A stretch of 32,687 nt of DNA, from NCBI GenBank assembly GCA_028288485.1, contig JAQBNO010000123.1, forward strand, positions 1-32,687, given 5' to 3'. The position numbers and the translations under genes were made by a program. The notes beneath the pieces were generated by a model. It had not been told where the DNA came from and did not search any database. It saw only the letters and a list, made by a program, of their open reading frames with translations. Below are positions 129 through 20,689 of the stretch, piece after piece; position 1 is the stretch's first letter; each line of letters opens with the position of its first letter. This stretch comes from Segetibacter sp. GTDB taxonomy: Bacteria > Bacteroidota > Bacteroidia > Chitinophagales > Chitinophagaceae.

Positions 129-2285
129 CTAATTGTAAAGGCAAAGCAGCATGTCGAAATCGTGCAACTGTGGTACGTTGCATTCAACCCATCCATCTAC
201 CTGCTTAAAATTAAGTGTTGTACCGGACCTCATCAGCTTTAGTTCTTTTATAGGTTTTGTTGGTTTGAAACGAATATTGGTATTATGTATAGTAACGGGC
301 TCGCGTAATGAACCGCCGACCTGGCCGGAATGATTGATCAAACCGAGCCATTCAAAGGCGCCATTACGGTTTGCTAAATGTGTTATTTCGATCAGCGGCG
401 AAGCATCTGTTACCACTGTTCGTTCAACATTTAGCAGGTTTTGCAGTGCAGAAACAAACATTGCACGGTGCATATAATGTCCTTTGAAGAGATATTGTGA
501 ACCCAGCTCCCACGGAATAAAAACGGATCTTCCTTTACCATATGTATTACTGACGACGCCCGGAAAGTTGGTGATATTCTCCTGTGTGTAATACGATTTC
601 TCGGGAGGGCCGAACCTTGTGGCAGGTAAAAATTTCATATAACCTTTTGCGGCGCCGGAAGTTGTGCACTGTAGAAAATCGGAATAAGTCATCATGATGC
701 TGAAGTCTTTAAACTCCTTTTGCCCAAGGGAAGCCTTGTCGTTATCCGATACTTTAAGGTACGTTGATTTAGCACGTTTAAAAGTCTCGAAAGAAGGATT
801 TACACCGAACGATTTCAAGCGAATGCTGTTCAATGGTTTTCCTAAAGCATCTTTTGTTGAAGTAAATGCGGTCGACAATATTTTACCGCCGTTGTTTACA
901 TAGGTATCAATAGCAGAAACAAGCCGATCATCCATATCACTAACGTCGCCAAGAATAAGGGCTTCGTACTCTTCCAGTTGGCGTGGCATCCTGCTCGTGC
1001 CTATTACTGCAGGATCGATGATGTCGTACATAATATGTTCTTCAGTGAGTAACTTTATCATGCCTTCATATTCGTCGCGTGAGCCCCTTATCAATGCAAT
1101 TTTGTTTACCGCCTGCACATTCGTAAACAACTTCTCATTGGTTTTGTGGAAGCCGTACAGGTTGTTAAGTGTGGGAATAAAAATACGGTCTTCATAATTT
1201 ACCAGGGTACCTACAACTACAAAACCAAGCGGTGCGCCGTGCAGCATATTTTCAAGCATCCATACTTTTGCCATATTTGGAGAAGTACCAACATGCCGGT
1301 AGCCAATTGCCTGGAAGTAAATGAGGAGGTTGCCGGGCGACCTGTCTTTGTAAGAACCAAGTACCCGCTTAACATTATCGGTTGCCGAGTAATTCCATTC
1401 GTATTCAGGGGTGAGCTCTGCTCCTGATTCGCTGGCGATCATATCAACACCTGCATCGGCATAGGTATTGATCATTATTTTAGGATTCAAAGTTTTAATA
1501 TGATTTCCTATTTGCTTAAAAAGCTTGTCGGCGGTTGTTTTTTTAAATGCGTTGTATTCCCTGAAAACCGGATCGTTCATATCTGCTTTTACCGGTAAAG
1601 TATGACCGGTAGAATCGTGAAATTTCTTTTTACAGTTCTCGCATTGACAAATGCCATAATAATTTCCACTATAATCAGAAGTTGTATAACCGATCATGTT
1701 GAAGAAAATACCATCGAGCGGGTAAGTTGTAATGGCTTCTTTCAATATTTCCATGCCATATTCCTGCTGGTAACCGCCATTCGGACACGTATGTACCTGG
1801 CCATTATAGTTTACATTTTTGCCTGCCGTTGATACATAGAGCCATTCCGGTTTTTTAGCTGCAAGTGTTTCATTGATCTTACTAAAATCAAAACGACCAA
1901 TCACTTTTATGCCTTTGGAATGAAGTCCCCTAATCAGGTCGCCTACAAGGTCGCCTTTCATAAAGGGGTTCCTGTAATGATATGGAAGTTTTGTAGGGTA
2001 GTTACCAACAATACCACCAACATTTATCAGGACAATATTAGCCGATGCATCTACCATTGATTGCACGTAAGCATCAACGTCCATAGTCGCATCAATTTCA
2101 CGCAAATTCGTTTGCACTAACCGGTAAGGTGCCCGGTTCCACCAGGTAGTATCGTAACGGCCCGGATCAATTCCTGAAAGGTCAACCCCGGTATTGGTTG
2201 TTGATTTAGCGGAATGATTGGCGGAATTACAGGATGCCACAATGATGGCTACACAAAAAATTAAAAAGGACGAAATTTTTCTCAT
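129..2285 (-). CDS. Lipoprotein, GHL6-like putative glycoside hydrolase with C-terminal trimerisation-type region
   Basis: The 718-residue product starts with a lipoprotein signal ending in VASC, with the acylated Cys at 19, so it should be membrane-anchored and face the periplasm or outside. Residues about 45-340 look like a TIM-barrel of the GHL6 type (hypothetical glycosyl hydrolase 6), with DGIFFNMIGY at 191-200 followed by a Cys cluster C213-x-C215-x2-C218 that could bind zinc. Residues about 395-500 look like the glutamine-amidotransferase-like fold of GH42 trimerisation domains, and the C-terminus is beta-rich. The protein is clearly paralogous to the 722-residue protein at 10741-12909 (same barrel, same CxCxxC motif, same C-terminal layout). 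It is the last gene of the minus-strand locus, 332 bp after the propeller gene. Substrate and activity are unknown. The gene call is certain; the enzyme role is inferred from family resemblance. Confidence 0.75.
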   Translation of the reverse strand: MRKISSFLIFCVAIIVASCNSANHSAKSTTNTGVDLSGIDPGRYDTTWWNRAPYRLVQTNLREIDATMDVDAYVQSMVDASANIVLINVGGIVGNYPTKLPYHYRNPFMKGDLVGDLIRGLHSKGIKVIGRFDFSKINETLAAKKPEWLYVSTAGKNVNYNGQVHTCPNGGYQQEYGMEILKEAITTYPLDGIFFNMIGYTTSDYSGNYYGICQCENCKKKFHDSTGHTLPVKADMNDPVFREYNAFKKTTADKLFKQIGNHIKTLNPKIMINTYADAGVDMIASESGAELTPEYEWNYSATDNVKRVLGSYKDRSPGNLLIYFQAIGYRHVGTSPNMAKVWMLENMLHGAPLGFVVVGTLVNYEDRIFIPTLNNLYGFHKTNEKLFTNVQAVNKIALIRGSRDEYEGMIKLLTEEHIMYDIIDPAVIGTSRMPRQLEEYEALILGDVSDMDDRLVSAIDTYVNNGGKILSTAFTSTKDALGKPLNSIRLKSFGVNPSFETFKRAKSTYLKVSDNDKASLGQKEFKDFSIMMTYSDFLQCTTSGAAKGYMKFLPATRFGPPEKSYYTQENITNFPGVVSNTYGKGRSVFIPWELGSQYLFKGHYMHRAMFVSALQNLLNVERTVVTDASPLIEITHLANRNGAFEWLGLINHSGQVGGSLREPVTIHNTNIRFKPTKPIKELKLMRSGTTLNFKQVDGWVECNVPQLHDFDMLLCLYN

Positions 2286-2617
2286 TATGGCTCGGTTTAA
2301 TCGCTACAAATTTTATTATTGGTTCGTTTTATTTGTTTCTGGTGTTAGTTTTTTAACGTACCATCATTTGTTCTTTAAAGAAGCATTTGCGGCCCGCCGG
2401 GATGAATAATCCGTTCGAACGGGCGTGGGGCACACTTGTACTTTTATGTATTCTTGCGGCTCGACCTCATCCCGGGCTCAATGAATTTATCCGGGCAGGC
2501 TCGGTCATTCTCCTTTACCAGAAGGAGGCCAGCCGGTACTCGAGAATTTGTCTATGGTTCTAACACATCTTCATTTCAACATTAACTATCATTCGCATTC
2601 CAGTATGCACCTCGAAT
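2286..2617. other. Intergenic gap with degenerate repeat pieces
   Basis: These 332 bp separate the propeller gene (stop at 2618) from the lipoprotein gene (start at 2285). I see no convincing gene. The run GCACACTTGT near 2430 also occurs in copy B of the dispersed repeat (near 6570), so this may hold a decayed copy. A small palindrome, CTCCTT-TACCAG-AAGGAG, lies near 2510-2527 but has no T-run. The lipoprotein promoter, if separate, should be here, but I could not identify it. Confidence 0.4.
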
Positions 2618-2660
2618 TTAGTTCTTTAAGCCCCCTTTACGGGGTTTGGGAGTTTGGCTA
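2618..2660. repeat. C-rich palindromic repeat, copy 1
   Basis: The plus strand reads TTAAGCCCCCTTTACGGGG and then GTTTGGGAG. A similar segment (TTAAGCCCCTACAGGGGG) is at 6617-6636. Both copies sit in the same orientation at the 3' end of a minus-strand gene. This copy encodes the last codons of the propeller protein. Confidence 0.6.
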
Positions 2661-3730
2661 AACCAATACAACAGCAACCCGTGTCCCATTCCCGGGGGAT
2701 CTGTAGACTTTGCCGCCTGGAAAGCCATGAACTTTCCATCTGTAGAAACAACAGGATTGGCCGCCTTTCCGCCTTCATAATCGTTGAAGTAGGTAAGCCG
2801 TACAAGATCTTTTCCTGTACCGTCCAGCTTCATTTTCCAGATATCCAAATTGCCCGAGCCCCGCAGTCCTCCCAACCATTCACACTGCCGGTCCATTTCA
2901 ACCGTTGTGTATTTACCGCCCGGAAAAATACCTTCAGGCTCATTAAAAGCATCTGGTTTGTTGGAAAAATTAGTTACCTGTTTAGTTGAAAGATCAAGGC
3001 CTTTTACATCGAAAGCACCATTAGGAACATAACAAAAGAAAATCAGCCTGGTATCATTTTCGTAGAAGTCCTGCGCTTCCACTGTACATGTTTTATCGGA
3101 ACTTTCTATTACTGTTTTTCTGTTGACGAGCTTTGGCGTTCCATTTGAAAGATCAAGATCTGCCATCACTATTTTAGAAAATACTTCCGGGTTTCCGGGA
3201 GAAGACATTTCGGTGAACGCTATTTTCATACTTGTTTTTGAAAGGGCCACTCCCTCGCTTACCTTCTGCCCTATCTTAACAGGTTTCGAACCTTCAGCTT
3301 TGCTCAAATAATATAAGTCGCTGTTCTTTTTGCTAACCTGTGTGTTTTCAAACTTGTCAGGCCCGATTAATAAATAATCTCCGTTTGATAAATGCATCAC
3401 CCGCAAAAACGCAGCGGCCGGAATGTTGCAGGTTAAACAGGTGATGGCTTTTGTTTTCACATCAACCACCATCGCATCCCCAAACGTTTTGGCCATATAG
3501 GCAACCCTTTTATTATCGGGTGAAATATCTGCACGTTCTCCAAACAAAGTCAGCACTTCAATATTCTTTGGAAGGTTCGCAAGCGGGTCTCCAATTTTTC
3601 GCTTGTTAAGCTGACTTCCATTTTTAGCCATTGTTGTTTGCTGCGCAAATCCTTCATCTAGGCTCGTTGCAAACACAACAACGAACAACAATAAGTATAA
3701 TATGACCGCTTTTAGTTTCATGACTGGCAT
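2618..3730 (-). CDS. Secreted TolB/PD40-type beta-propeller protein
   Basis: The 370-residue product has a signal peptide (about residues 1-29, ending in FAQQ) and then repeats of the PD40/WD40-like TolB type, such as ISPDNKRVAYM near 68-78 and VSTDGKFMAFQAA near 333. Such propellers in glycan loci are usually periplasmic and bind ligands or partner proteins; no catalytic residues are evident. It starts 8 bp after the stop of the GH67-like gene, so the two are almost certainly co-transcribed and perhaps translationally coupled. An alternative start is Met4. The last dozen or so codons (ending QTPKPRKGGLKN) run into a C-rich repeat also found near 6617, so the native C-terminus may once have been elsewhere. 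Family assignment is good; function is unknown. Confidence 0.75.
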   Translation of the reverse strand: MPVMKLKAVILYLLLFVVVFATSLDEGFAQQTTMAKNGSQLNKRKIGDPLANLPKNIEVLTLFGERADISPDNKRVAYMAKTFGDAMVVDVKTKAITCLTCNIPAAAFLRVMHLSNGDYLLIGPDKFENTQVSKKNSDLYYLSKAEGSKPVKIGQKVSEGVALSKTSMKIAFTEMSSPGNPEVFSKIVMADLDLSNGTPKLVNRKTVIESSDKTCTVEAQDFYENDTRLIFFCYVPNGAFDVKGLDLSTKQVTNFSNKPDAFNEPEGIFPGGKYTTVEMDRQCEWLGGLRGSGNLDIWKMKLDGTGKDLVRLTYFNDYEGGKAANPVVSTDGKFMAFQAAKSTDPPGMGHGLLLYWFSQTPKPRKGGLKN

Positions 3731-3738
3731 AAACGTTT

Positions 3739-6450: not shown

Positions 6451-6519
6451 TGTATTGATGTCTTTAAGTTTTGTTTTCAGTAGAATGCATGATTGTACTT
6501 CACACTATTAAACACGTAA

Positions 6520-6590
6520 TATTTCTTATGAACCCGGCATTGCGGCTACTATGATTCATCGTTGCGTCGCACACTTGTGCTGCAACAAAA
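6520..6590 (-). repeat. Dispersed intergenic repeat, copy B
   Basis: Read on the minus strand this segment gives GTGTGCGACGCAACGATGAA followed by TCATAGTAGCCGCAATGCCGG, matching the core and tail of the other copies with small changes. It lies between the D-2-hydroxyacid dehydrogenase gene and the GH67-like gene, about 70 bp upstream of the latter's start. Confidence 0.65.
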
Positions 6591-6616
6591 ATGTCAGCAA
6601 GAATAGCTTTAGGCTC

Positions 6617-6636
6617 CTTAAGCCCCTACAGGGGGT
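6617..6636 (+). terminator. Terminator-like C/G palindrome, C-rich repeat copy 2
   Basis: The plus strand reads TTAAGCCCCTACAGGGGG and is followed by TTTTTT. The stem is short (CCCC/GGGG, 4 nt loop), but the T-run is good in the plus direction. It sits just past the stop of the minus-strand dehydrogenase gene, where its T-run is on the wrong side, so it may block antisense transcription or simply be a copy of the repeat at 2618-2660. Confidence 0.45.
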
Positions 6637-6648
6637 TTTTTCGCTTTT

Positions 6649-7608
6649 TTATATATTTACCACATTAACAGGATTTCCATTTACAAAAGCAGCAAGATTA
6701 CTAACCGTAATATCCATCAGCCTTGCCCGGGCCTCTTTTGTTGCCCACGCTATATGAGGAGTGATAATGCAATTTTTTGCACCAAAAAGCGGGTTTTCTT
6801 TTGAAGGTGGTTCAGCGGATAAAACATCAATTCCTGCACCGGCAATAACATCGTTGTTTAAAGCATCGGCCAGGTCTTCATCCACTATAATCGGTCCCCT
6901 TGAAGTATTTATGAGGAATGCTGACCTCTTCATACTTTGTAAGCTCTCTTTATTTATCAGCCCTTTTGTTTCAGGAAATAAGGGGCAATGAATGCTTACC
7001 ACATCTGATTGTTCCAGCAGCTCAGGAATTTCAGCCCAGCGAAAATTCGGGCGATGAGACTGATCGCTGCGGTTCCTGCTGTTCCCGATAATATTCATTC
7101 CGAATGCAGTGGCTACATTGCCAACTTGCTGGCCAATTCTTCCAAAGCCGATAATACCAATGGTTTTACCTAATAGTTCAACCAGGGGATAATCCCAATA
7201 ACACCAGTCGGCGGATTTTGCCCATTTTCCTTCCATTACCGTGTCGCTGTGCCGTTGAACGTGCAGGCATAGTTCGAGCAACAAGGCAAAAGTCATTTGA
7301 ACAACCGACGTTGTTCCATAACCAGGTACGTTGGCTACAATGATGCCCTTCGCTTTTGCTACATCAGTGTTTACTATATTATAACCGGTAGCAAGCACCC
7401 CAATATATTTTAATGAAGGAAGCTGGTTTATTGCGTCTTCGCTTACCGGCGTTTTGTTTGTAAAAATAACCTCTGCACCTTGTGCACGTTCAACTACCTG
7501 TTCGGCAGGTGTTCTGTCGTGAACAACTACATCCCCTAATTTCTTCAAGTCTTCCCAGCTTAGGTCGCCGGGGTTTAAAGTATATCCATCCAGTATTACA
7601 ATCTTCAT
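6649..7608 (-). CDS. D-2-hydroxyacid dehydrogenase (glycerate/hydroxypyruvate reductase-like)
   Basis: The 319-residue cytoplasmic enzyme interconverts a 2-keto acid and a D-2-hydroxyacid using NAD(P)H. It shows the full family layout: a Rossmann motif GFGRIG at 154-159, and the catalytic triad Arg237 in NTSRGPI, Glu266 in VLSAEPP and His285 in TPHIAWAT. Length is normal for the family. It resembles the glycerate dehydrogenase/hydroxypyruvate reductase branch more than D-lactate dehydrogenase, but that cannot be settled by eye. It follows the TIM-barrel isomerase gene by 135 bp. Its presence with an LctP permease and an isomerase suggests that the locus handles a 2-hydroxyacid such as glycerate, lactate or a sugar-derived hydroxyacid. 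Start ATG and family are secure; the substrate is inferred. Confidence 0.9.
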   Translation of the reverse strand: MKIVILDGYTLNPGDLSWEDLKKLGDVVVHDRTPAEQVVERAQGAEVIFTNKTPVSEDAINQLPSLKYIGVLATGYNIVNTDVAKAKGIIVANVPGYGTTSVVQMTFALLLELCLHVQRHSDTVMEGKWAKSADWCYWDYPLVELLGKTIGIIGFGRIGQQVGNVATAFGMNIIGNSRNRSDQSHRPNFRWAEIPELLEQSDVVSIHCPLFPETKGLINKESLQSMKRSAFLINTSRGPIIVDEDLADALNNDVIAGAGIDVLSAEPPSKENPLFGAKNCIITPHIAWATKEARARLMDITVSNLAAFVNGNPVNVVNI

Positions 7609-7741: not shown

Positions 7742-7743
7742 TA

Positions 7744-8655
7744 CTAAACCCTTGCCCACGCTTCGTTTAATGTACGTTTAGCATTCGCAATAACGATGTC
7801 GGGATCTTCATCTCCAAAAGGTTTAATCTCAAAACTTACGATAGGCGGTTTTTTATCATTTAAAAATCCTATTTGCAATAGAACGCGCAAATAATCCACT
7901 ACTTCATCCACATCGTTTTCACCATTTGGAAAACCGAAACGTGGGTGAAGGTCGCCGTAACCGGGCATCTCGGGGCTTTTAACAACGCAATTGCCGATAT
8001 GGGCATGAATAATATAATCTTTAACGGGCAAGAGAGATTCTTCAATCGTTTCATGAATTAAAGGAATGTGACTAAGGTCGACCATTAATCCAAAATGTTC
8101 ATGCTCTTCCCTGATCTCTTTGGCGTACCGCAGAGCAATATCAGCAGGACCAACCAGGCTTTTTTTATCGACGTCATAATCAAAAACTTCCAGTGCAACT
8201 GTCATGTTTCCTTTGCTCTTTACATAGGCGCAAATCTCTTTCGTCGATTTTATCAGCGCCTGGTATGAATCGTCTTTGGTGGCCTCTTCATACTTACCGC
8301 TTAAAAATGCAAAACCGGTGGCGCCGATCTCATACGCTTCGTCGATACCTTCTTTCAGGTTTTGTAACGCTTTGAGCCTGCCTTCTTCGTTCAGGTCGTT
8401 TATATTTAGTCCGGTTGTAAGTAACCGCGGCTGCGCTCCATAGGCTACCGTCATGTGCGATGTGTCGAGCATTTTCTTAACCGCCTTCCGCTCTTCAGGA
8501 TCTTTTATCGTGGTTATTTCAATTGCATTAAAATAATCATCGAGCGCTAATTTTCTGATGGTTTCCAAAATTGGTCCTTCACCTTTTATCGTGGCAGGAT
8601 AAGCCATAAAGTGAACGAGCCCAACTTTCATGTACTTGAATAACGAATCTTGCAT
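7744..8655 (-). CDS. Sugar phosphate isomerase/epimerase-like TIM-barrel protein
   Basis: The 303-residue protein belongs to the AP-endonuclease-2/xylose-isomerase-like TIM-barrel superfamily, whose members isomerise or epimerise sugars, inosose or hydroxypyruvate, or act as lyases, with a divalent metal. Candidate metal ligands in the usual order are Glu156 (VALEVFD), Asp193 (MVDLSH), His219 (HAHIGN) and Glu276 (SFEIKP). No signal peptide is visible, so it is cytoplasmic. Its start is only 7 bp after the LctP stop, which implies co-transcription and probable translational coupling. A second possible start is Met9, giving MKVGLVHFMAYP, the more typical family N-terminus. Next to a D-2-hydroxyacid dehydrogenase, a hydroxypyruvate-isomerase-type role is attractive but unproven. 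Confidence 0.8.
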   Translation of the reverse strand: MQDSLFKYMKVGLVHFMAYPATIKGEGPILETIRKLALDDYFNAIEITTIKDPEERKAVKKMLDTSHMTVAYGAQPRLLTTGLNINDLNEEGRLKALQNLKEGIDEAYEIGATGFAFLSGKYEEATKDDSYQALIKSTKEICAYVKSKGNMTVALEVFDYDVDKKSLVGPADIALRYAKEIREEHEHFGLMVDLSHIPLIHETIEESLLPVKDYIIHAHIGNCVVKSPEMPGYGDLHPRFGFPNGENDVDEVVDYLRVLLQIGFLNDKKPPIVSFEIKPFGDEDPDIVIANAKRTLNEAWARV

Positions 8656-8662
8656 ATAATTT

Positions 8663-10447
8663 TTATTTTACTACAGATAAATCCACTGCTTTTGTTTTAT
8701 AATTATTCTTTTTTGCCATTAACATAATTACTGCTACAAAGGCAACCACAACTGCCGACAATATGAACAGGTAGGTATAGCCTTTTGCGAAATCGGGAAT
8801 TGAAGCGGTTGTTTGTTGACTCAGCATTTCATACTCAGGAATTATCCAGCTAAATACATAAGCCTGGGCCAAAACGATGAAACAAATAAATATGAGCATA
8901 ATGAAACTATGCTTTACTGTAAACCTGAAAAGTTCCGATTCTTTTCCTACCAGGTGACCTGCCGCGGCTGCGACAGCTATTGATTGAGGCGAGATCATTT
9001 TACCCACAACACCACCCGATACATTGGCCGCAACCGTCACTACAGGATCAACACCAATTGAAGTAGCGGTGGCAGCCTGGAGTTTACCAAATAATGCGTT
9101 AGCCGAAGTATCGGAACCGGTAATAAATACACCCAGCCAACCCAAAACCGGCGCAAAGAAAGGAAACATGAAACCGGTGCCTGCTAATGCTTCGGCCATA
9201 GTTATTGTTATGCCTGAGTCGTTTACAATGTAGGCAAACCCTAAAACAGAGGCAATGGTGATTAACGGGTACTTGAGTTGTTTCAATGTTTTCAGGAAAA
9301 TTCTTGCTCCGTCAATGAATTTTAGACCAATTAAGGGGATTGAAATAAGTGCCGAAAGCAGTATGGCTGTGCCCGCTGCTGACAGGTAATTGAATTTATA
9401 AATGTGAGGGAGCGCTTTTCCGTTTTTATCAGTTATTACGTTGTGCAGACCCGGGAATTCGAATTGAACCTGCCCAACTGCATTGAACACTTCTTTAATA
9501 GGTTGCATGCCCCATGTGACAATCATTATCGTTAATAATATAAATGGCGACCAGGCGCGTACAATCTGGCCGGTTGAATATTTGGCCTCTGTATTGAACG
9601 TTGGCGGCGGTTCGTTGGCAAATCGCCAGGTAGTTTTAGGAGTCCAGAACTTAAGGAAAATGATCAGTGCTAAAATTGAACCGATACCTGCAATAACATC
9701 AGGAAGTGCGGGACCCATGAAATTAGAAGAAAACCATTGTATGAAGGCGAACGAACATCCGGACACCAAAATAGCAGGAAGTATTTCCATTGTTTTCTTG
9801 TAGCCCGACATTAGAATTACCAGGTAAAAAGGCAGTAACACCGATAAGATAGGCAATGTTCTTCCTACCATTTGGGAAATGGCCATTTCAGGAATGGAAG
9901 TTACCTGCGATGCGACGGTGATCGGAATACCAATTGCGCCAAATGCTACAGGCGCAGTGTTGGCAATAAGGCAGATACCGGCAGCATATAAAGGATTAAA
10001 TCCTAAGCCAACAAGCATGGCAGCAGTGATGGCGACGGGTGCCCCGAAACCCGCCGTACCTTCTAAAAAAGATCCGAACGAAAAAGCGATCAGCAGAGCC
10101 TGCAGCCTCCTGTCGGAAGTGATCGAAGCCATGAAATGTTTGATGACCTCAAACTGACCGCTGTCGACAGTCAGGTTGAACAGGAAAACCGCGCTGATAA
10201 CAATCCAGCCAATAGGAAATAATCCGTATAAAGCGCCATTAGCGGTCGACAGCAGGGCTAATTGAACCGGCATTCCATAAACAACAATGGCAATAACTAT
10301 GGCAATAGCTACTGCAATTAAACTTGCCTTATAACCCTTCATTTTTTTAATGATCAGTGCCCAGAATATAAAAAGTATAGGCACTACTGCCACCAAAGCC
10401 GACAAGGCGATGTTATTAAAAGGATCAATGACTTGTGTCCAGTTCAT
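8663..10447 (-). CDS. lctP: LctP-family lactate/glycolate-type permease
   Basis: The 594-residue polytopic inner-membrane protein is a member of the LctP family (L-lactate permease, TC 2.A.14), proton-coupled importers of lactate, glycolate and similar 2-hydroxymonocarboxylates. Many hydrophobic helices are visible along its whole length. Family-like segments include SFLEGTAGFGAPVAI near 130-144, ITGSDTSANALFGKLQ around 460-475 and the start MNWTQVIDP. It is somewhat longer than the roughly 550-residue E. coli LldP. It is encoded directly upstream of the isomerase gene (7 bp gap) within the SusCD locus, which is unusual: glycan loci normally carry a sugar MFS transporter. The family is secure; the substrate here could be lactate, glycolate, glycerate or another hydroxyacid. 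Confidence 0.92.
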   Translation of the reverse strand: MNWTQVIDPFNNIALSALVAVVPILFIFWALIIKKMKGYKASLIAVAIAIVIAIVVYGMPVQLALLSTANGALYGLFPIGWIVISAVFLFNLTVDSGQFEVIKHFMASITSDRRLQALLIAFSFGSFLEGTAGFGAPVAITAAMLVGLGFNPLYAAGICLIANTAPVAFGAIGIPITVASQVTSIPEMAISQMVGRTLPILSVLLPFYLVILMSGYKKTMEILPAILVSGCSFAFIQWFSSNFMGPALPDVIAGIGSILALIIFLKFWTPKTTWRFANEPPPTFNTEAKYSTGQIVRAWSPFILLTIMIVTWGMQPIKEVFNAVGQVQFEFPGLHNVITDKNGKALPHIYKFNYLSAAGTAILLSALISIPLIGLKFIDGARIFLKTLKQLKYPLITIASVLGFAYIVNDSGITITMAEALAGTGFMFPFFAPVLGWLGVFITGSDTSANALFGKLQAATATSIGVDPVVTVAANVSGGVVGKMISPQSIAVAAAAGHLVGKESELFRFTVKHSFIMLIFICFIVLAQAYVFSWIIPEYEMLSQQTTASIPDFAKGYTYLFILSAVVVAFVAVIMLMAKKNNYKTKAVDLSVVK

Positions 10448-10678: not shown

Positions 10679-10701
10679 AAAAGGGGGGCTGCCCACCCCC
10701 C
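10679..10701 (-). terminator. Candidate rho-independent terminator after the Tat-exported glycosidase-like gene
   Basis: On the minus strand GGGGGG (10696-10701), the 7 nt loop TGGGCAG, and CCCCCC (10683-10688) form a six-pair all-GC stem, followed by TTTT. It begins about 40 bp downstream of the stop codon at 10741. The U-run is short, so strength is uncertain. It suggests that the permease and later genes have their own promoter. Confidence 0.55.
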
Positions 10702-12909: not shown

Positions 12910-13100
12910 AATTATTTAGTTTAAAACCAAACTTGTTAAATAAAATTTCCTTCCGAAAGTCTTTGTGTTTCAATATTGCAAGTCGAAGACGAACAGCTGC
13001 CCAGGCGCATTGGGTACGCTCAGGCCCTTCGGCTACGATCAGGGACCTGATAACTTTGCTCATGGTGGCGGCATAACACTTCGAATACGCTTACGGCGCT

Positions 13101-13175
13101 GCTATGAAAAACCACCTTTGAACCGAGCGTGGCAACGATGTATGATAATAGCAATAATGTTGGAACCATAAAAAT
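13101..13175 (+). repeat. Dispersed intergenic repeat, copy E
   Basis: It contains GCTATGAAAAACCACC then TTTGAACCGAGCGTGGCAAC, the same flank as copy A, and an AT-rich tail (GTTGGAACCATAAAAATTG). The core is slightly changed (GGCAACGATGTATGATA). It lies in the gap upstream of the Tat-exported glycosidase-like gene. Confidence 0.7.
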
Positions 13176-13215
13176 TGTCGTGAGTTTTCCCGACAAAAGC
13201 GGTAATAGCGAGTTG

Positions 13216-13273
13216 CCGGTGGTGAATGGTGAGTGAGAGTTTTTGCTTCATTACTCACCACTCACTTCTCACA
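13216..13273. repeat. GTGAGTGG-type imperfect inverted repeat after SusD
   Basis: One arm reads GTGAATGGTGAGTGAGAG; the other reads ACTCACCACTCACTTCTCAC. They are imperfect complements around a T-rich centre. It begins 5 bp past the susD-like stop codon on the minus strand, so the RNA could fold as a 3' end structure for the susCD transcript, although there is no clear U-run. The same short words recur loosely near 7630-7660. Confidence 0.5.
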
Positions 13274-13277
13274 AATA

Positions 13278-14735
13278 CTAATTATATCCCGTATTTTGCT
13301 TAAAAACAGCCGGATTGTTCATTACCTGAACCTGGCTTAGCGGTACAGGGAAAACAGTCATGTAGTCCTTCATTCCAACAGGTGTCAATGCCTGTAATGC
13401 CTTCCCGGTTCTTACAAGGTCAAACCATCTGTGGCCTTCAAAGGAAAGTTCGAATCTTCGTTCATTGGCAATAATATCCCGTGCTTCCAATTGAGTTAGA
13501 CTTGTGAATGGTTGAAAACCTGCCCTCACCCGAACCTTGTTTAACGGGTTTAAGGCGTCTGCAGTTTTACCGTTTTCATTCATTGCCTCTGCCAGCATTA
13601 ATAATACATCGGCAAATCTTGTAACTTTCCAATTTGCGCGGCTATCATCCTGGTTTGCTACAGCTGTAATATACTTCTTTGTATAAGACTGGCTGGTGGT
13701 TGAACTAAAGGTTGTAACTGCCCCGGTAGTAGGATTTGTCCATGTACCGCAGCACTGTACACTCACATCCTTTCTTAAATCGCCCGGTTGCCACAAATTC
13801 ACAAATTGCCTGGTGGGAGAAAAAGACTCATTGAAACCACCTCTAATATTGTAGTAATTCAACAACGCCGTAACATTCGGCATAGAGTTTCTCGTGAATA
13901 CACTGCCTAAACCTCCCAATCCTTCTTCATACTCAATATCAAATATGTATTCACTATGGTGCTCGTTCTTCGAGTAGTCGAACAAGTCGTTATAGTTAGG
14001 TAAAAGCGCATAGGTGTAAGGGGCAGCAGTCAACTCTTGTAACACAGCTTCAGCCTTTGGAAAATCTTTAACTGTGAGGTACACTTTTCCTAAGATAGCT
14101 TTAGCCGCACCGCGGGTAGCTCTTCCTACTTCTACACCTGTATAGGCTATTGGCAATTTACTGCCTGCGTCCAACAGGTCTTTTATAATTACTTCAGAAT
14201 AAACAGTTGCAGCAGGTGTACGAGGGGTAGCACGAACTTCATCGATCGTTGGAATATTCGTAATCATTTGAACGTCGCCAAATATTCTTACTAAATCGAA
14301 ATAAGCTAAAGCCCTGAGGAATTTTGCCTCTCCCGTATAACGGTCTTTGTTTTTAATTACTGCCGGGTCTGCACTTTCAATTCTTGTCAAAATATTATTG
14401 GCCCTGTTGATAGCTATATAATAATTCGCCCATGTATTGTTTAACAGGGCATCGCTGCTGTTTATAGAAAAAACATCTACACCTGTTGAGCTGGGTTGAT
14501 TAGTTACCTGAATCCACACATCGTCTCCACGCAAATCGCCGAATTGCCACATATTTTGGTATGGAGTTCGCAATCCCTGGTAAACACCTACGACCGCATC
14601 CTGGTAATCTTTATCGGTTTTGTAAAGTGCATCAATTGTTACAGATGATACAGGTTGTTTTTCTATGAAACTTTTGCTGCATGAAGACATCATTAATACA
14701 CATGCCGCTGATGTAATGCTGAATATATTTTTCAT
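13278..14735 (-). CDS. SusD/RagB-family outer-membrane glycan-binding lipoprotein
   Basis: The 485-residue protein is the surface lid partner of the SusC channel downstream of which it is encoded (35 bp gap). It has a lipoprotein signal with acylated Cys at 19 (MMSSCSK), an N-terminal SusD-like region with TPR-type helices (YLRALAYFDLVRIFGDV-type segment near 140-156, seen here as KFLRALAYFDLVRIFGDVQ), and a C-terminal SusD/RagB region ending with the common RRFELSFEGHRWFDLVRTG block near 429-447. Length is normal for the family. Which glycan it binds cannot be read from sequence. It lies at the membrane end of the locus, and its transcript may end at the inverted repeat just past the stop. 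Assignment is secure. Confidence 0.95.
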   Translation of the reverse strand: MKNIFSITSAACVLMMSSCSKSFIEKQPVSSVTIDALYKTDKDYQDAVVGVYQGLRTPYQNMWQFGDLRGDDVWIQVTNQPSSTGVDVFSINSSDALLNNTWANYYIAINRANNILTRIESADPAVIKNKDRYTGEAKFLRALAYFDLVRIFGDVQMITNIPTIDEVRATPRTPAATVYSEVIIKDLLDAGSKLPIAYTGVEVGRATRGAAKAILGKVYLTVKDFPKAEAVLQELTAAPYTYALLPNYNDLFDYSKNEHHSEYIFDIEYEEGLGGLGSVFTRNSMPNVTALLNYYNIRGGFNESFSPTRQFVNLWQPGDLRKDVSVQCCGTWTNPTTGAVTTFSSTTSQSYTKKYITAVANQDDSRANWKVTRFADVLLMLAEAMNENGKTADALNPLNKVRVRAGFQPFTSLTQLEARDIIANERRFELSFEGHRWFDLVRTGKALQALTPVGMKDYMTVFPVPLSQVQVMNNPAVFKQNTGYN

Positions 14736-14770
14736 TATCTTTTAATAATTAGGTAGTAATAGCGAATGTT

Positions 14771-17700
14771 TTAGAAACCTACGTTTAATCCTACAACAAT
14801 ACTCCTGGGTAAAGGATAGTTGTTAGCATCAATGCCGGGAGTTAGCGCGTTTCCACTGTTGCTTACATCAGGATTGAATGAGCGGTTTTTGGTGAATACA
14901 AAGGCATTATTAGCAGTAGCATAAACCCTTAGAGAACCGAGGGAAAGGGCATTGGAAATTCTATTAGGCAGATTATAACCAAGAGTGATGTTGTTAATAC
15001 GGAGAAATGATCCATTGTCCATATATCGTGTACTTGCTAATCGAAGACCACCTCTTGGATTATCATTCGGCCTCACTGTATTTCCATCGCCGGGGTCAGC
15101 TTCAGATTTCCAATAATTTAATTCGGTTGTTAACGTTCTGCTTCGTGAACGGATAAGCCTGTAAATAACCATTGCATTGCTGTAAATCTGGTTTCCATGA
15201 GATCCGGCAAGATTAACGCTAAGACTTAAATTTCCGTAAGAGAACCGGTTGGTCATGCCGTAATAGAAATCGGGATAAGGTGAACCCATTATGGTCAGGT
15301 CACTATTATTAATTATCCCATCCGGTTTTCCGCCAGGGCCGCTAACATCTTTAAATCTTATATCACCTACTCTTGAATCATCGGCCAAGCCTTTGTTATA
15401 GATAGGACCGGCCGCCAGTTCTGCCGCATTTTTAAATATACCATCTGTTATAAACCCGTAGAACATTCCAATAGGCTCGCCTATTTTAGTAATATTATTT
15501 CCGACGATGATAGGATCACCTGAAGGTCCTAACTTAACCACCTCGTTCTTGTAAGTAGAAATATTAAAGTCTGTTGACCACTTAAACTTCCCGGTTGTAT
15601 TTATTGAACTAACAACAAACTCCCACCCTGTATTTTTTACTTCGCCTATATTCTGAAGGGCAGTTGCAAAACCGGAAGCCGTAGGTATGTTTACGTTTAA
15701 CAACAAATCCTTGTTGGTGGATCTGAAATGGTCAACCGTTACATTCACCCTACCATTAAACAGTCCCAGGTCTATCCCTCCGTTTACCTGCTGCTGTGTT
15801 TCCCAGGTTAAGTTAGGATTTGGAATAACACCGGGCGCAAAACCTCCAATCGCTACACCACCGGTAGTGTATTTAATATAATTGACAGTGGATAATGAAG
15901 CGTAATTTCCAATATTATTATTCCCGGTTTTGCCATAGCTTACCCTAAGTTTCATCTGGCTTATGACGGGAATCTTTTGCATAAAACCTTCATCAGAAAC
16001 ACTCCAGGCTACCGCGGCAGAAGGGAAAACGCCGTATTTATTATTGGCGCCAAATCGGGACGAGCCGTCTCTGCGGAAAGAAGCAGTAACCAAATACCTG
16101 CCATCATAATTATAGTTTACCCGGGCAAGCTGAGAAACAATTGACCATTCGGATCTTGAAGCGGTACCGGTTGTTATTATTCCACTCACCGCACTTAAAG
16201 TTGGAACAAGGTTGTTGGGAAAATTAGTACTCGTCATCGTGTTGTCGTCAAATACATCCTCCTGAACCGTATAGCCTGCCAATGCCGCTACGGCATGTTT
16301 GCCGAACTTTTTATTATAGTTCGCCGTATATTCTGCAAGCCAGTTATAACCTGCGCCGGCAAAGTCAGAGCCTTCAGCAGCACGGTTGAGGAATACGGGA
16401 AGTTGTGGCCAGAAAGTAGAACCTTTTGTATTGTTAGAAGTGGCTCCTAAGAGAATATTAAGTTTTAACCCTTCAAAAAGTTTATATTCTGCGTTTACAT
16501 TACCTAAAATCCTGGTTCTGTTTGACACATCTTTCTTTTCCAGGGCGAGTGCCAGGGGATTATAAAGGTCTGTAGACGCATCAATACCCGAATAAACGAA
16601 ATAACTTCCGTCAGGATTATACAGCGGATAATAAGGTTGAGCGGAGGTTGCTGAACCGATGATACTTGTAGAAGCACCGGCACCACCGCCCTGTGCAATA
16701 ACGTTATTATTAACAATGTACGATGGATTAATATTCATTCGTACAGTCAATCTCTTTGTTAACTGCGCGTCGAAATTGGCCCGTACTGAGTATCTTTTGA
16801 AATTACTGTTCAAAATGATCCCGTCCTGGTTAAAGTATTCTCCGCTTATTGCATATCGAAGCGCATCATTACCTCCTGAGATGGACAGGTTGTAGCTTTG
16901 TTGCCCTGCCGCTCTCAATACCGCATCCATTGCGCTAACATCGTTGGTGTTTTTTCCTGAAATAACATCCAATACCGTTTGAGGAACTCTTATTGCCCAG
17001 GTTGTAGGATCACCTGAAACGTTATTCCCCAGGTCCATATTCCTGTTCCTGATGGAATTATAATAATAGTTGGCCTGCTGGTTCGCGTTCATGAACTCGG
17101 GCTTCCTGGTTACTTCCTGTACACCATAATAAGTGTCAAAATTTATTCTTGCTTTGCCGGTAGAGCCTCTTTTGGTATTGATAATAACAACACCGTTCGA
17201 ACCACGCGATCCATAAATAGCGGTAGCCGAAGCATCTTTTAGTATGTCCAAACTTTCAATATCATTCGGGTTTAGAGTTTGAATATTATCTGTTGGAAAG
17301 CCATCAACAACAAACAAAGGATCGACCCCGGCAGAAATACTACCGATTCCCCTTATCCTAATCTGTGGCGCAGCTCCGGGTTGCCCGTCAGAAAACTTTA
17401 CCTGTACACCAGCCGCTCTTCCCGAGAGAGCCTGCTCAATACGTGTTACGGGCAAGTCTTTAATGTCTTTAGAACTTACCGAAGCCACAGAACCGGTTAA
17501 GTCCTTTCTCCTTTGTGTTCCATAACCTACAACTACTACCTGGTCTAATGAAGCAGCAGTTGAATTCAGTTTTATCGCTAACGATAAGGTTACATCTTCT
17601 TTTATGTTGTATCCCGATAAAGTTTGTGATTCATAGCCAACAGTAGAAAAAGTAAAGCTATACGGACCACCTGAAGTTATTCTTGAGAATGTAAAAACAC

Positions 17701-17914
17701 CCGAACTGTCTGTACTTGTACCAGACGTAAAGTTTGTACTAGTATTTCTAATGATAACTGAAACCCCGGGCAAGGGTTCGTTAGTGCTGTTGCGAACAAC
17801 CCCTTTTATAACAGTGGGACTTCCCTGCGCACTTACTTGTGCCGAATGCAGGATAAAAACGAGGAACATCAGGGCAATAGAATGCACCTTCGATTTAAAC
17901 AGGTTAAATCTCAT
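14771..17914 (-). CDS. SusC/RagA-family TonB-dependent outer-membrane transporter
   Basis: The 1047-residue channel imports the SusD-bound ligand using TonB energy. In order: signal peptide (about 1-29), a CarboxypepD_reg-like beta domain (about 35-115, KGVVRNSTNEPLPGVSV), a TonB plug (about 125-250, with VVVVGYGTQRRKDLTGSV and ILKDASATAIYGSRGSNG), then a beta-barrel ending in the aromatic residue Phe (VVGLNVGF). There is no N-terminal STN signalling domain between the signal peptide and the carboxypeptidase-like domain, although an ECF sigma/FecR pair lies upstream. It is co-transcribed with the SusD gene (35 bp gap). A 955 bp gap precedes it. Assignment is secure; substrate unknown. Confidence 0.96.
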   Translation of the reverse strand: MRFNLFKSKVHSIALMFLVFILHSAQVSAQGSPTVIKGVVRNSTNEPLPGVSVIIRNTSTNFTSGTSTDSSGVFTFSRITSGGPYSFTFSTVGYESQTLSGYNIKEDVTLSLAIKLNSTAASLDQVVVVGYGTQRRKDLTGSVASVSSKDIKDLPVTRIEQALSGRAAGVQVKFSDGQPGAAPQIRIRGIGSISAGVDPLFVVDGFPTDNIQTLNPNDIESLDILKDASATAIYGSRGSNGVVIINTKRGSTGKARINFDTYYGVQEVTRKPEFMNANQQANYYYNSIRNRNMDLGNNVSGDPTTWAIRVPQTVLDVISGKNTNDVSAMDAVLRAAGQQSYNLSISGGNDALRYAISGEYFNQDGIILNSNFKRYSVRANFDAQLTKRLTVRMNINPSYIVNNNVIAQGGGAGASTSIIGSATSAQPYYPLYNPDGSYFVYSGIDASTDLYNPLALALEKKDVSNRTRILGNVNAEYKLFEGLKLNILLGATSNNTKGSTFWPQLPVFLNRAAEGSDFAGAGYNWLAEYTANYNKKFGKHAVAALAGYTVQEDVFDDNTMTSTNFPNNLVPTLSAVSGIITTGTASRSEWSIVSQLARVNYNYDGRYLVTASFRRDGSSRFGANNKYGVFPSAAVAWSVSDEGFMQKIPVISQMKLRVSYGKTGNNNIGNYASLSTVNYIKYTTGGVAIGGFAPGVIPNPNLTWETQQQVNGGIDLGLFNGRVNVTVDHFRSTNKDLLLNVNIPTASGFATALQNIGEVKNTGWEFVVSSINTTGKFKWSTDFNISTYKNEVVKLGPSGDPIIVGNNITKIGEPIGMFYGFITDGIFKNAAELAAGPIYNKGLADDSRVGDIRFKDVSGPGGKPDGIINNSDLTIMGSPYPDFYYGMTNRFSYGNLSLSVNLAGSHGNQIYSNAMVIYRLIRSRSRTLTTELNYWKSEADPGDGNTVRPNDNPRGGLRLASTRYMDNGSFLRINNITLGYNLPNRISNALSLGSLRVYATANNAFVFTKNRSFNPDVSNSGNALTPGIDANNYPLPRSIVVGLNVGF

Positions 17915-18869
17915 ATGACACGCAGTTTTTTAATTTAAAAAATAAAATGACAACCGATACTATTACCTTCCTTTTAATTGAAGGAGATAACGGTATTCCT
18001 GTTTTGAAAAACAAGTAATAATTGAGGGTATTCTCTTAGGTATTTTAATTCAATTGCCGGTCCTGTTATAATTTTTTATCGTTTTAGCGCAGGCATAAGT
18101 CTTAATATCACGAAAAATGTCGTCAGCAGCTTTTTTGTGATACCAACTTCGATAACCCAGTGCGTCATCCTTGCTTCCGATGCATCGCAACAGTTCAAGG
18201 GCAACGCAATGATTGAACTAACGTAATAGTTGATTCCGAGCTAGTCGAAGGATTTACCCTGAGCACATTCGAAAAATTTACCTAATTGTAGTCGAAGGAA
18301 TGCGCTAAGCGTCGTCGAAGGGATTTTGTTCATTCACTACGCTTCATGCACTTCAGCCTTTCACGGCAAAATTTTTTAAAATTCTAACAGTTTCGTCACC
18401 ATTACCCTGGAGGTCCGGAAATTAAAGGAGGGAGATCAGGGCAAGACATGCGCCCGGAAGAACGTAGACGTGAATTCATATGGCTTCTTATTAAGGGTTT
18501 ATTTTTGCAATCTTATTTTATTCGGTAGACCGGGGAATATATCGTTACGGTTTTGCTGCTATTTTTAGCCCACACTTCATCTATTAAAGCTTAGTGTATG
18601 AAGACGAATTACGCTTTTATAGCTGCCTAAGCATACCGGTTTAAAAATATTTTCTCCTTACTCTTTACGTCTTTTATTTCCTCGAAACGTACGTTAGCTG
18701 GTTCCGGAGGACTATTATAAAAAAAAGAGGAAACGTGGGGACGTAAAATGAATTCAGACAGTTAAAATGATTGAATCGAATATGACGGCAGTTTTTGGTT
18801 TATAAAAATATGAAATGTAATACTTCTTCAGCCACTCTTGTTACAGGAACAAATTGTTATAATTAAGCA
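17915..18869. other. Long intergenic region between FecR and SusC genes
   Basis: This 955 bp stretch has no convincing gene. It contains a degenerate copy of the dispersed repeat (18131-18178, minus orientation), a cluster of GTCGAAGG words at about 18244-18330 that resembles a decayed CCCTGAGCGTAGTCGAAGGG-type repeat, and a tiny plus-strand frame at 18448-18528 (26 residues) that I do not accept as a gene. The susC promoter should be in its left part, but no consensus Bacteroidota promoter stood out. Confidence 0.5.
18131..18178 (-). repeat. Dispersed intergenic repeat, degenerate copy
   Basis: On the minus strand this reads GCAAGGATGACGCACTGGG then TTATCGAAGTTGGTATCAC and AAAAAAG, which parallels the core and tail of the other copies (GCAACGATGATGCTATG, then a GTTGGTAT-type tail) with several changes. 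The assignment is weaker than for copies A-F. Confidence 0.4.
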
Positions 18870-20030
18870 CTATTTCGTAATAATAAACGTGTTATCCTTT
18901 TTCAAAATTTTCAGGTTATTCAGATCAGCTATTTGCTTTATTATGTTTTCAAAAGATTCTGACCTATCGAACTTACCAATAAAATAAATTTTAGAAATAT
19001 CTTTTTTTGAATACCGGATGTCGACGTCATACATATTTTGCAGCTCATCAAACACGAAACTCAATGGTTGATTGTTGAACATGAACCAGGAGCCCGTTCC
19101 GTTTTCAGGAATTGTGAGGTTATCAATAACAGGTTTCTCTTTTTCAGGACGTTTCGTAATAAGTGCATTTGCGCCAAATCTCCTCACTTTTGCAATATTG
19201 TTTTCGTTGTTATATATCAATTCCTGTCCGGCAAGAAGGTAATAATTATTAACCACATTTTGCGTCACTTTGTTACCCGGTTTTACCACAACTTTACCTT
19301 CAAACAACCGAACTATTATGAAGTTCTGATTTTCGAAAGCAGTAACCGTAAACCTGGTACCTAATGCAGTAGTAGATAAACTACCGCTAAATACTGTAAA
19401 AGGTCGAATTTTATCTTTAGCTACCTTAAAATTAGCTTTGCCCTTTAATTTTATATCTCTCCTGTCGTCAATAAAAGGTTCATAAAAACTTATTTCACTT
19501 TTATCCGATAGGGTCACTTCAGTTCCATCTTGTAATACCAGCTTCCGTAACTTGCCCGAGGTATTCAGTTCATGCCTAAGAGAACTGAAAGCAGAACTTG
19601 ATTTTTTAGTTACCTTAACTTCAGCAACCTCCGTTGCTTTATTGTTGTTATTATCAAATAATCCTGCTAATCCCATAACCCATATCAACGAAGCTGCTAT
19701 TGCTGTTGAAATAATGATCTTATAGATCCTTGCATTCTTATTGCGGGTTTCATCTATACCTATTTCAATTACTTCTGCAATGTCCTGTTCATCTTCAATC
19801 TCCTTAAAGGAGATTTTTTGTTCAAGTTGTCGCCATTCGTGGTTGACGTTAATAGCGCCCGGTGTATTTTTAAGAGAGGTTAATCTCCAGGTATTCTTAA
19901 GTACATTAAAGCATTGGGTGTTTTCCTCACTCGAATTGATCCACTCTATAACAAAAGCTTCTTCCTTCCCCGTAAGCTCATTTAATAAATGCTTTATTAA
20001 TAGGTCCTCATATTGATCGCGATTCTCCAT
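18870..20030 (-). CDS. FecR-family anti-sigma factor
   Basis: The 386-residue inner-membrane protein holds the ECF sigma factor until a periplasmic signal arrives. The cytoplasmic N-terminus (about 1-100) is the sigma-binding part, a single transmembrane helix spans about 102-124 (YKIIISTAIAASLIWVMG), the FecR domain covers about 155-250 (LVLQDGTEVTLSDKSEI; TTALGTRFTVTAF), and a DUF4974 domain fills about 317-385 (FNNQPLSFVFDELQNMYDV). This layout and length are typical of Bacteroidota. It follows the sigma gene by 65 bp and precedes susC. In known systems the STN domain of a TonB-dependent transporter signals to FecR; the neighbouring SusC lacks one, so the signalling partner is unclear. Confidence 0.94.
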   Translation of the reverse strand: MENRDQYEDLLIKHLLNELTGKEEAFVIEWINSSEENTQCFNVLKNTWRLTSLKNTPGAINVNHEWRQLEQKISFKEIEDEQDIAEVIEIGIDETRNKNARIYKIIISTAIAASLIWVMGLAGLFDNNNNKATEVAEVKVTKKSSSAFSSLRHELNTSGKLRKLVLQDGTEVTLSDKSEISFYEPFIDDRRDIKLKGKANFKVAKDKIRPFTVFSGSLSTTALGTRFTVTAFENQNFIIVRLFEGKVVVKPGNKVTQNVVNNYYLLAGQELIYNNENNIAKVRRFGANALITKRPEKEKPVIDNLTIPENGTGSWFMFNNQPLSFVFDELQNMYDVDIRYSKKDISKIYFIGKFDRSESFENIIKQIADLNNLKILKKDNTFIITK

Positions 20031-20095
20031 GTACTTTTATTTATACGACCAGGAAGGATTTTACCCCTACAAGAATAAAAAAATATTTTTAGCGA

Positions 20096-20689
20096 TTAAT
20101 TGCTGAAAAAAGATGACAACAGAAAAAGTGAAATTAAGTAATGCGATAGCTTTTGTCTCAACTTAATTAAAGCCCTGCTCATTTGCGTTTCAACAGTTTT
20201 AACCGAGATATTTAAGTGCTGTGCAATAGCGATGTATTTTAAGCCCTCATACCTGCTTAATTCGAATATTTTTCGCATTTGTTCCGGTAATTCTGCAACT
20301 GCTTTATCTATTGCGGTTGCCATTTCCCTAATATCGACCTGCTCAAATTGAGCCGCGGATGCGTTTGTCGAACTTTCAAGGATCATCTTTTCATAGCGGA
20401 GTTTTACTTTCTCATGTTTAAGTATATCTAAACAGTTATTGGTGATGATCTTGTATAAATAAGATTTTGCGGAAACAGTTGATGATAGATTCGAACGGGT
20501 TTCCCATAATTTAATAAATCCGGTATGAACCACTTCTTTAGCCTCGTTGAGGTCGAAGCCGTATTTATACTGGCAAAAAGCACAAAGCTGGATAAAGTTG
20601 TTCTTGAAAAACGTCTCAAAATCCTGGTCGTCGATTTTTATGTTATTGCCTGAGTCGTTGTCTTGATCATATGTTTGTTTCAGGTTCAT
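20096..20689 (-). CDS. ECF RNA polymerase sigma factor
   Basis: The 197-residue protein has sigma region 2 at about 30-95 (EAKEVVHTGFIKLWETR, then the KSYLYKIITNNCLDILKH segment) and region 4 at about 125-178 with a helix-turn-helix (YIAIAQHLNISVKTVETQMS). Regions are arranged as in the Bacteroidota ECF sigma factors that pair with FecR. The C-terminus is unusually hydrophobic (ISLFLLSSFFSN). Alone at the head of the minus-strand locus and 65 bp from FecR, it most likely activates susCD and downstream genes, but the target promoters were not found. The upstream 305 bp separate it from selD. Confidence 0.95.
   Translation of the reverse strand: MNLKQTYDQDNDSGNNIKIDDQDFETFFKNNFIQLCAFCQYKYGFDLNEAKEVVHTGFIKLWETRSNLSSTVSAKSYLYKIITNNCLDILKHEKVKLRYEKMILESSTNASAAQFEQVDIREMATAIDKAVAELPEQMRKIFELSRYEGLKYIAIAQHLNISVKTVETQMSRALIKLRQKLSHYLISLFLLSSFFSN

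Follow-up and report, generated by a model that had tools for sequence, protein, structure and literature searches.

A SusCD locus from Segetibacter in which relatives of glycosidases stand beside a candidate hydroxypyruvate-to-glycerate branch

What lies at the locus?

Our subject is a stretch of DNA of 32,687 nucleotides from Segetibacter sp. (GenBank assembly GCA_028288485.1, contig JAQBNO010000123.1), which we call the window (contig C94 in a genome of 6.4 Mb), and within it a locus at 129-20689 whose best reading, we think, is the catabolism of a glycan with a branch that would lead from hydroxypyruvate to glycerate. The locus comprises 11 genes, all on the minus strand and with coordinates that equal open reading frame bounds exactly, in the order sigma, FecR, SusC, SusD, GHL6a, LctP, TIM, HADH, GH138L, prop and GHL6b.

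20096..20689, minus: extracytoplasmic-function (ECF)-type sigma factor, 197 amino acids (aa); Pfam PF08281, 60 bits, and PF04542
18870..20030, minus: FecR-type anti-sigma factor, 386 aa; PF04773, PF16344
14771..17914, minus: SusC outer-membrane TonB transporter, 1047 aa; TIGR04056, 860.6 bits, cut-off 368
13278..14735, minus: SusD surface glycan-binding lipoprotein, 485 aa; PF07980, 104 bits, and PF14322
10741..12909, minus: GHL6a, putative glycosidase, 722 aa; PF14871, 55 bits; twin-arginine-like N-terminus by eye
10683..10701, minus: terminator-like hairpin in the gap between GHL6a and LctP; pattern match only
8663..10447, minus: LctP-family 2-hydroxyacid permease, 594 aa; PF02652, 611 bits; TIGR00795, 589 bits, cut-off 341
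7744..8655, minus: TIM, xylose-isomerase-like TIM barrel, 303 aa; PF01261, 57 bits
6649..7608, minus: HADH, D-2-hydroxyacid dehydrogenase, 319 aa; PF02826, 196 bits, and PF00389
3739..6450, minus: GH138L, GH138-related putative glycosidase with signal sequence, 903 aa; profile and structure comparison
2618..3730, minus: prop, with signal sequence, 370 aa; no Pfam family, TolB/WD40-like by eye
129..2285, minus: GHL6b, putative glycosidase with lipoprotein-like signal, 718 aa; PF14871, 99 bits
1..127, no strand: exact match to 34739-34865, where contig C100 ends, so that the locus runs on beyond the window

A sequence-only reading of this DNA had seen sigma/FecR, SusC, SusD, two GHL6-like proteins, an LctP permease, a TIM-barrel protein and a D-2-hydroxyacid dehydrogenase on one strand, and the family matches and the 11 minus-strand frames bear this description out. 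Adjacent SusC and SusD genes together with relatives of glycan-active enzymes make this a SusCD polysaccharide utilisation locus, and it shares with others of that class its SusC (TIGR04056), its SusD (PF07980), the sigma/FecR pair, secreted TIM-barrel relatives of glycosidases and a single direction. It differs from them in that neither a sugar importer nor a sugar kinase is recognised at 129-20689, where LctP, TIM and HADH are found instead, and in that its continuation carries a glycerate kinase and a tartronate-semialdehyde-reductase-like gene. A NanU, or sialic-acid, identity for SusD was rejected, at 94 bits against a cut-off of 425. By eye and by hydropathy, signal sequences are present on GHL6a, GHL6b, GH138L and prop and on neither TIM nor HADH. 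The gaps are short between LctP and TIM (7 nucleotides), GH138L and prop (8), SusC and SusD (35) and sigma and FecR (65); the others measure 955, 368, 293, 135, 198 and 332 nucleotides. The sole PDB match of prop, which the sequence-only reading called a propeller, is at chance level (E=0.94) and it has no Pfam match; a search of 395 Bacteroidota genomes at E<=1e-20 gave homologues in 5, and prop is also found near LctP in two further loci (L004 and L023).

How far does it extend?

The window begins with 127 bases that exactly match the final 127 of contig C100, an overlap with just two full-length copies among the 40 matches scored in the genome, and the first 127 bases of C100, reverse-complemented, are the start of contig C8, a junction compared directly and not genome-wide. 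Joining calls for caution, since the overlap between window and C100 includes part of a dispersed repeat, of which the genome holds, in addition to the two full copies, at least 38 partial ones with 76-92% identity, and which also appears in the window outside the main open reading frames at 35-78, 13097-13140 and 24315-24358. The resulting order agrees with that in Ferruginibacter RYN_280 (L106), where GHL6b is followed by a GarR-like gene, a glycerate kinase, GH138L and GHL6b. Subject to the caution over the repeat, the joined locus is about 66 kb long and runs in one direction, the window being read from 20689 to 1 and followed by C100 and then C8.

C100 supplies the GarR-like (tartronate-semialdehyde-reductase-like) gene, which reaches 259 bits of the TIGR01505 cut-off of 341 and has an 88% identical relative in L106, a glycerate kinase above the TIGR00045 cut-off, GH138L, GHL6b (69%), SusC (62%) and SusD (55%), and further on five more GH138L-like genes (one of them a partial match), sigma/FecR and a second SusCD. 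On C8 there are two prop genes, YhcH, LctP (65%), Fe-ADH, HADH (87%), a glycerate kinase and, at 249 of 594 bits, a malate-synthase-like gene.

What are the glycosidase relatives?

The 903-aa protein, GH138L, had been labelled GH67/GH115-like, a label that we would replace: a profile of 31 homologues matches the GH138 alpha-galacturonidase BPa0997 at E=8e-42 over stretches 10-207 and 228-671, and the predicted structure (predicted local distance difference test, pLDDT, 82) has 6hzg as its top Foldseek match at E=4e-32, with a GH67 alpha-glucuronidase next at E=2e-15. GH138L is thus kin to BPa0997 in overall sequence, over most of the chain, and in fold. One glutamate, E294 of BPa0997, is kept as E347 of the window protein and in 31 of 31 homologues. 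At the other, E361, the family differs, with A417 in the window protein, alanine in 30 of the 31 and glycine in one; the residues were matched by hidden Markov model alignment and their numbers counted by hand. We take E294 to be the partner of E361 in the catalytic pair of BPa0997, and E361S appears in the name of a deposited chain of that enzyme, a serine mutant. None of the 31 aligned members has both residues, and GH138L reaches 80 bits of the 1300 set by the NCBIfam alpha-d-galacturonidase model NF049878, which would represent GH138. Because the E361 position is alanine or glycine, we do not count GH138L as a GH138 member on present evidence and regard it, from its residues, as a relative of that family, an enzyme of rhamnogalacturonan II (RG-II) according to PDB titles.

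The two GHL6 proteins, which are 21-22% identical to one another, appear to be relatives of the alpha-L-fucosidase 6TVK, presumably of family GH151, and we treat both as putative glycosidases. A joint profile of 13 proteins (10 GHL6b and 3 GHL6a) matches 6TVK at length, over residues 96-475 and 551-688 with E=4e-28, and GHL6b alone does so in two stretches at E=2.4e-11; GHL6a alone differs in matching 84 residues only (156-239, E=4e-6).

What might the acid branch do?

LctP passes the curated cut-off of its family. TIM has the xylose-isomerase-like fold and the Glu/Asp/His/Glu set of hydroxypyruvate isomerase (Hyi), as E156, D193, H219 and E276, which are invariant among seven sequences and would be metal ligands, and its fold model (pLDDT 80) matches the D-tagatose 3-epimerase/xylose isomerase class at the level of the general superfamily only. 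The Hyi model itself, TIGR03234, was absent at E<=0.001, the models of IolO, psicose epimerase and Lsa27 alone being matched. Art22, IolO and psicose epimerase were each rejected as the identity of TIM, all scores being weak; the nearest named model is the IolO 5-keto-L-gluconate epimerase, at 47 bits of a cut-off of 300.

HADH, with its D-2-hydroxyacid dehydrogenase domains and the Arg/Glu/His residues of hydroxypyruvate/glyoxylate reductases, whose roles we assume to be the usual ones, is likely to be such a reductase, judging from domains and residues; its best named equivalog, PRK06487, scores 324.6 bits, under the cut-off of 448, and it scores to GhrB as well. The cofactor loop reads GNSR, GNAR or GSSR in seven of seven aligned Bacteroidota proteins and YD in five of six from Firmicutes (YSR in L149), which suggests NADPH for the former and NADH for the latter.

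These two proteins also invite a different explanation, namely that TIM and HADH, as an IolO-like epimerase and a 2-ketoaldonate reductase, handle the C5/C6 uronate or ketoaldonate acids that a GH138-like uronidase would release, with glycerate arising later, as when pyruvate and tartronate semialdehyde are cleaved from an aldarate-derived acid. IolO is indeed the nearest named model of TIM, the GhrB to which HADH also scores reduces 2-ketoaldonates, GH138L is akin to an alpha-galacturonidase with a GH67 alpha-glucuronidase as its next fold neighbour, and YhcH-type genes occur in L004 and L016. However, the IolO score is far under its cut-off, known LctP members carry small monocarboxylates, and the genes identified on the window, C100 and C8 (on the right part of the last, not all of them) include no uronate dehydrogenase, dehydratase or aldolase, so that we consider this explanation improbable.

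For D-glycerate the most telling genes are the kinases. A PF02595-type glycerate kinase accompanies HADH in five places within the genus (C8, G005, G006, G007 and G009), and others occur in L102, L105 (which is G007 again), L106, C100 and 3 of the 24 Firmicute TIM loci described below, while both full-length Anaerocolumna TIM loci carry a DUF4147-MOFRL protein instead, which we take to be the other, unrelated glycerate 2-kinase family. Because two unrelated kinase families accompany TIM and HADH, D-glycerate is the likely product of HADH, on this gene context, and hydroxypyruvate its likely substrate.

How widely is the arrangement conserved?

A scan of the species-genome collection for GH138L gave 83 confirmed places, of which 80 were kept, in Bacteroidota, Planctomycetota, Verrucomicrobiota, Acidobacteriota, Firmicutes and others by record title. 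Of these 80 loci, 7 have TIM, 7 HADH (one just 31% identical), 4 LctP and 3 glycerate kinase. TIM itself is rare: samples of 396 genomes from the order (E<=1e-25) and 395 from the phylum (E<=1e-40) gave one hit apiece, which in both cases was the genome of the window. Bacteroidota supplied five TIM loci: those of the window, Chitinophagales 62-2 (L105, contig G007:C111), Dyadobacter bucti (L098/L152), Ferruginibacter RYN_280 (L106/L151) and a Williamsia-labelled metagenome-assembled genome (MAG) with a Bacteroidota-like contig (L102/L216); those besides the window were found via GH138L, one also via LctP. Stretch L153 was left out of the annotation.

LctP, TIM and HADH are contiguous in all five, and SusC, SusD and GHL6a stand immediately before them in all four that can be read on that side, the window included, L105 stopping at LctP. 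In the syntenic L151, L152 and L216, SusC is 58-76% and SusD 54-73% identical to the window's. As a control, 15 other Bacteroidota LctP places in 14 genomes were searched by BLAST with the window proteins (E<=1e-10, at which distant SusCD might escape) over up to about 9 kb per side, one contig offering just 6.7 kb, and they gave one SusC homologue, at 21% identity, and no SusD; the window's own genome and five weak or broken matches (G173, G290, G166, G217 and G261) were left out. The recurrence of the order SusC-SusD-GHL6a-LctP-TIM-HADH exceeds chance.

Two further contigs deserve mention. The Williamsia label belongs to Actinomycetota, and L102/L216 carries SusCD 73-76% identical to the window's; this MAG is probably contaminated or mislabelled. 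On contig C74 (L005:1-1177) a degenerate, frame-broken LctP lies near prop, a GH42 protein, SusD, SusC, FecR and sigma, with SusCD more distant from the window's (SusC 35%, SusD 23%), perhaps a decayed relative of the window locus.

Is the pair of TIM and HADH older than the locus?

In Firmicutes, TIM was found in 20 of 295 genomes of the order of Clostridium sp. MCC353, and these 20 stretches together with L107, L108, L132 and L149 make up the 24 Firmicute TIM loci, from which three fragments were left out, L150 (TIM, from G794) and, at contig ends, G911:C46 and G859:C97. HADH lies on the same strand as TIM in 22 of the 24 and directly adjacent in 21, and the pairing is older than the association with SusCD. 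In the TIM tree the five Bacteroidota proteins form one clade (100/100) inside a 13-member set with eight Firmicute rows (95/84), and in the HADH tree eleven Bacteroidota proteins form one clade (99/95) that the Firmicute L184 adjoins (100/100). Both trees have midpoint roots only, and transfer from Firmicutes is possible.

No LctP was seen among the 24 loci. L107, L108 and L132 have an ABC-type solute-binding protein gene and a GH138L without signal sequence, which would explain the missing LctP there, and TctA is present in 5 of the 24, TctB in 4 and TctC in 4. Glycosidase-type genes are seen in L184 (GH42 and GH2) and L149 (GH2 and three GHL6 relatives). Gene clusters here were named from one Pfam-scanned representative each, and on that basis two transketolase-half clusters occur in 11 and 10 of the 24 loci and a PdxA-like one in 7. 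As an observation in its own right, L180-L199 comprise TIM-HADH operons with transketolase halves, an IolO-like TIM barrel, PdxA-like and TctABC genes, a candidate carboxylate pathway.

The transketolase halves bring to mind a source in branched-chain or RG-II-type pectin sugars, such as D-apiose, whose C5 oxo-acid would be split by a transketolase-type cleavage into hydroxypyruvate and a C2 product, which the Fe-ADH and malate-synthase-like genes of C8 could accept; that GH138 acts on RG-II, by PDB titles, fits as well. No transketolase, apiose or apionate enzyme, however, is found among the identified genes of the window, C100 and C8, and we think this source very improbable.

What does the locus do, and how firmly can this be said?

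With middling confidence, we propose that this is a sigma/FecR-controlled SusCD locus for the uptake and cutting of a glycan or glycoside that feeds a small 2-hydroxy or 2-oxo acid to D-glycerate. SusCD, under sigma/FecR control, would take up the glycan or glycoside; the secreted GHL6a, GHL6b and GH138-related enzymes would cut it outside the cytoplasm; LctP would move the released monocarboxylic acid over the inner membrane; and in the cytoplasm TIM, acting as an isomerase from the hydroxypyruvate-isomerase/epimerase superfamily, would work with HADH, acting as a hydroxypyruvate reductase, to yield D-glycerate. The glycerate kinases of C100 and C8 would convert this into phosphoglycerate, and the GarR-like enzyme of C100 may provide a second entry to D-glycerate. 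Gene content, gene order, conservation and kinship to solved structures underlie this proposal as direct observations. From them we infer the compartments (signal sequences by eye and hydropathy), the transport, the three reactions and the D-glycerate product.

A more specific version, which we offer tentatively and with less conviction, is that the glycan bears a residue released as a three-carbon acid, which LctP imports, TIM isomerises and HADH reduces to D-glycerate. Candidates for the acid are L-glycerate and precursors of hydroxypyruvate or tartronate semialdehyde; GH138L, lacking one GH138 glutamate, would cut by a different arrangement or cut a different bond; and the same TIM-HADH pair would serve other entry routes in Firmicutes, by ABC-type binding-protein importers or TctABC.

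Several points weigh against our proposal. HADH, TIM and the GarR-like protein fall under the curated cut-offs of every named enzyme, so that the reactions rest on family and context. Neither glycerate kinase family was seen in 19 of the 24 Firmicute TIM loci (5 have one), and none is seen in the annotated stretches of Dyadobacter bucti (L098, L152). GH138L was seen in none of the 20 stretches to which TIM led and is not an obligate partner, and its presence in the Bacteroidota TIM loci is not independent of how they were found, the SusCD, LctP and HADH content being independent. Gaps of 135-368 nucleotides separate several genes, and a GC-rich hairpin with a T-run at 10701-10683, between GHL6a and LctP (one of 26 such patterns in the region, against 20.0 expected from its shuffles), may divide the locus into two transcripts; with these longer gaps and the hairpin, a single transcript is not assured. 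Within the genus, window-type SusCD (>50% identity) stands beside LctP only in the window and G008, and LctP and HADH occur without it in G003, G005, G006 and G009, where distant SusCD relatives lie about 4 kb (G005) and 11 kb (G009) away and G003 has a 20% SusC relative. In G304, where SusCD and TIM were not seen, GHL6a (68%) is followed by LctP, HADH and glycerate kinase, and because of this the smallest conserved glycosidase-bearing unit is GHL6a-LctP-HADH(-kinase), SusCD and TIM being added in a subset.

Such places could mean that the genus has a glycolate/L-lactate module, made up of LctP, HADH, glycerate kinase and genes of the malate-synthase-like and LutA/LutB-like kinds, that merely lies beside SusCD, the glycan giving no acid. 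S. koreensis (G006) is the clearest case, with LctP-HADH-glycerate kinase-LutA-LutB, a 209 aa protein and a malate-synthase-like gene in a row and no SusC or SusD match in 28 kb; the malate-synthase-like gene is common to it and C8, and such a module would be like the E. coli glc/glx genes. As with the E. coli glyoxylate/glycerate genes glcA, glcB, hyi, glxR and glxK, there are here an LctP-type permease, a malate-synthase-like gene, an isomerase-like TIM barrel, a GarR-like gene and a PF02595 kinase. Unlike those genes, the window locus is joined to glycosidases and SusCD, and glyoxylate carboligase and GlcD are not above cut-off in any of 13 genomes here (TIGR01504, best 355 of 711 bits; TIGR00387, best 432 of 568 bits), although weaker matches to both models occur in all 13. 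Glycolate is consequently no obvious feeder, and the classical route (glyoxylate carboligase, GlcDEF) from glycolate to tartronate semialdehyde is unsupported as a local source. Moreover, the order SusCD-GHL6a before LctP-TIM-HADH recurs in four lineages, and the genome of the window repeatedly places LctP, HADH and glycerate kinase next to GH138-like, GHL6 or prop genes. A mere neighbour module seems to us unlikely on balance; C2 acids or lactate may still contribute, given the malate-synthase-like gene of C8 and the LutA/LutB-like genes of S. koreensis and L106.

Returning to glycan catabolism with a glycerate branch, HADH lies downstream of LctP in seven of seven testable places within the genus, directly, after TIM or after two genes (C8); G008, whose contig ends 137 nucleotides past LctP, was excluded, and the broken LctP copies C74 and G007:C314 were not counted. 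The sequence-only reading had expected permease, isomerase and dehydrogenase to stay with SusCD, which holds for the block (five of five) and its SusCD neighbours (four of four readable), though not for the LctP-HADH pairs of G003, G005, G006, G009 and G304. Its idea of a joint SusCD-hydroxyacid pathway gains from synteny in four lineages, and glycerate kinase and the tartronate-semialdehyde-reductase-like gene accompany LctP-TIM-HADH in some loci; what the pathway makes is, in our view, more aptly said to feed D-glycerate.

What else is in the window?

At 20995-23302, on the minus strand, AIR-synthase-type (SelD-like) and rhodanese-domain proteins adjoin the sigma gene, unrelated to the locus and likely, we assume, a tRNA selenouridine pair. 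On the plus strand, opposite to the locus, a GFO/IDH/MocA oxidoreductase, ThuA, a GMC oxidoreductase and gluconate 2-dehydrogenase subunit 3 stand in a row at 24463-29626, a set familiar from 3-keto-glycoside metabolism, which we leave outside the locus. A protein with an endosialidase-chaperone domain (Peptidase_S74), with a Por_Secre_tail match under cut-off, occupies 30649-32685 on the minus strand and is open at the contig end.

Why does this matter?

In the openly readable literature (titles and abstract openings, among the matches listed) we found no account of a SusCD locus that includes LctP, hydroxypyruvate or glycerate kinase genes. The work brings out a TIM-barrel family that is rare and that, in two phyla, has an almost constant dehydrogenase partner, and a GH138-related family, from 83 places, that lacks one residue of the GH138 pair in 31 aligned members. 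The records of Dyadobacter bucti QTA69 and Anaerocolumna sp. MB42-C2 carry no MAG label. The substrates of SusCD loci are usually guessed from glycosidase families alone, and an acid branch is an independent clue to them. The gene set points to an undescribed bacterial use of acid-yielding sugar material and, if our proposal is true, would add a glycan-to-glycerate metabolic ending to SusCD loci.

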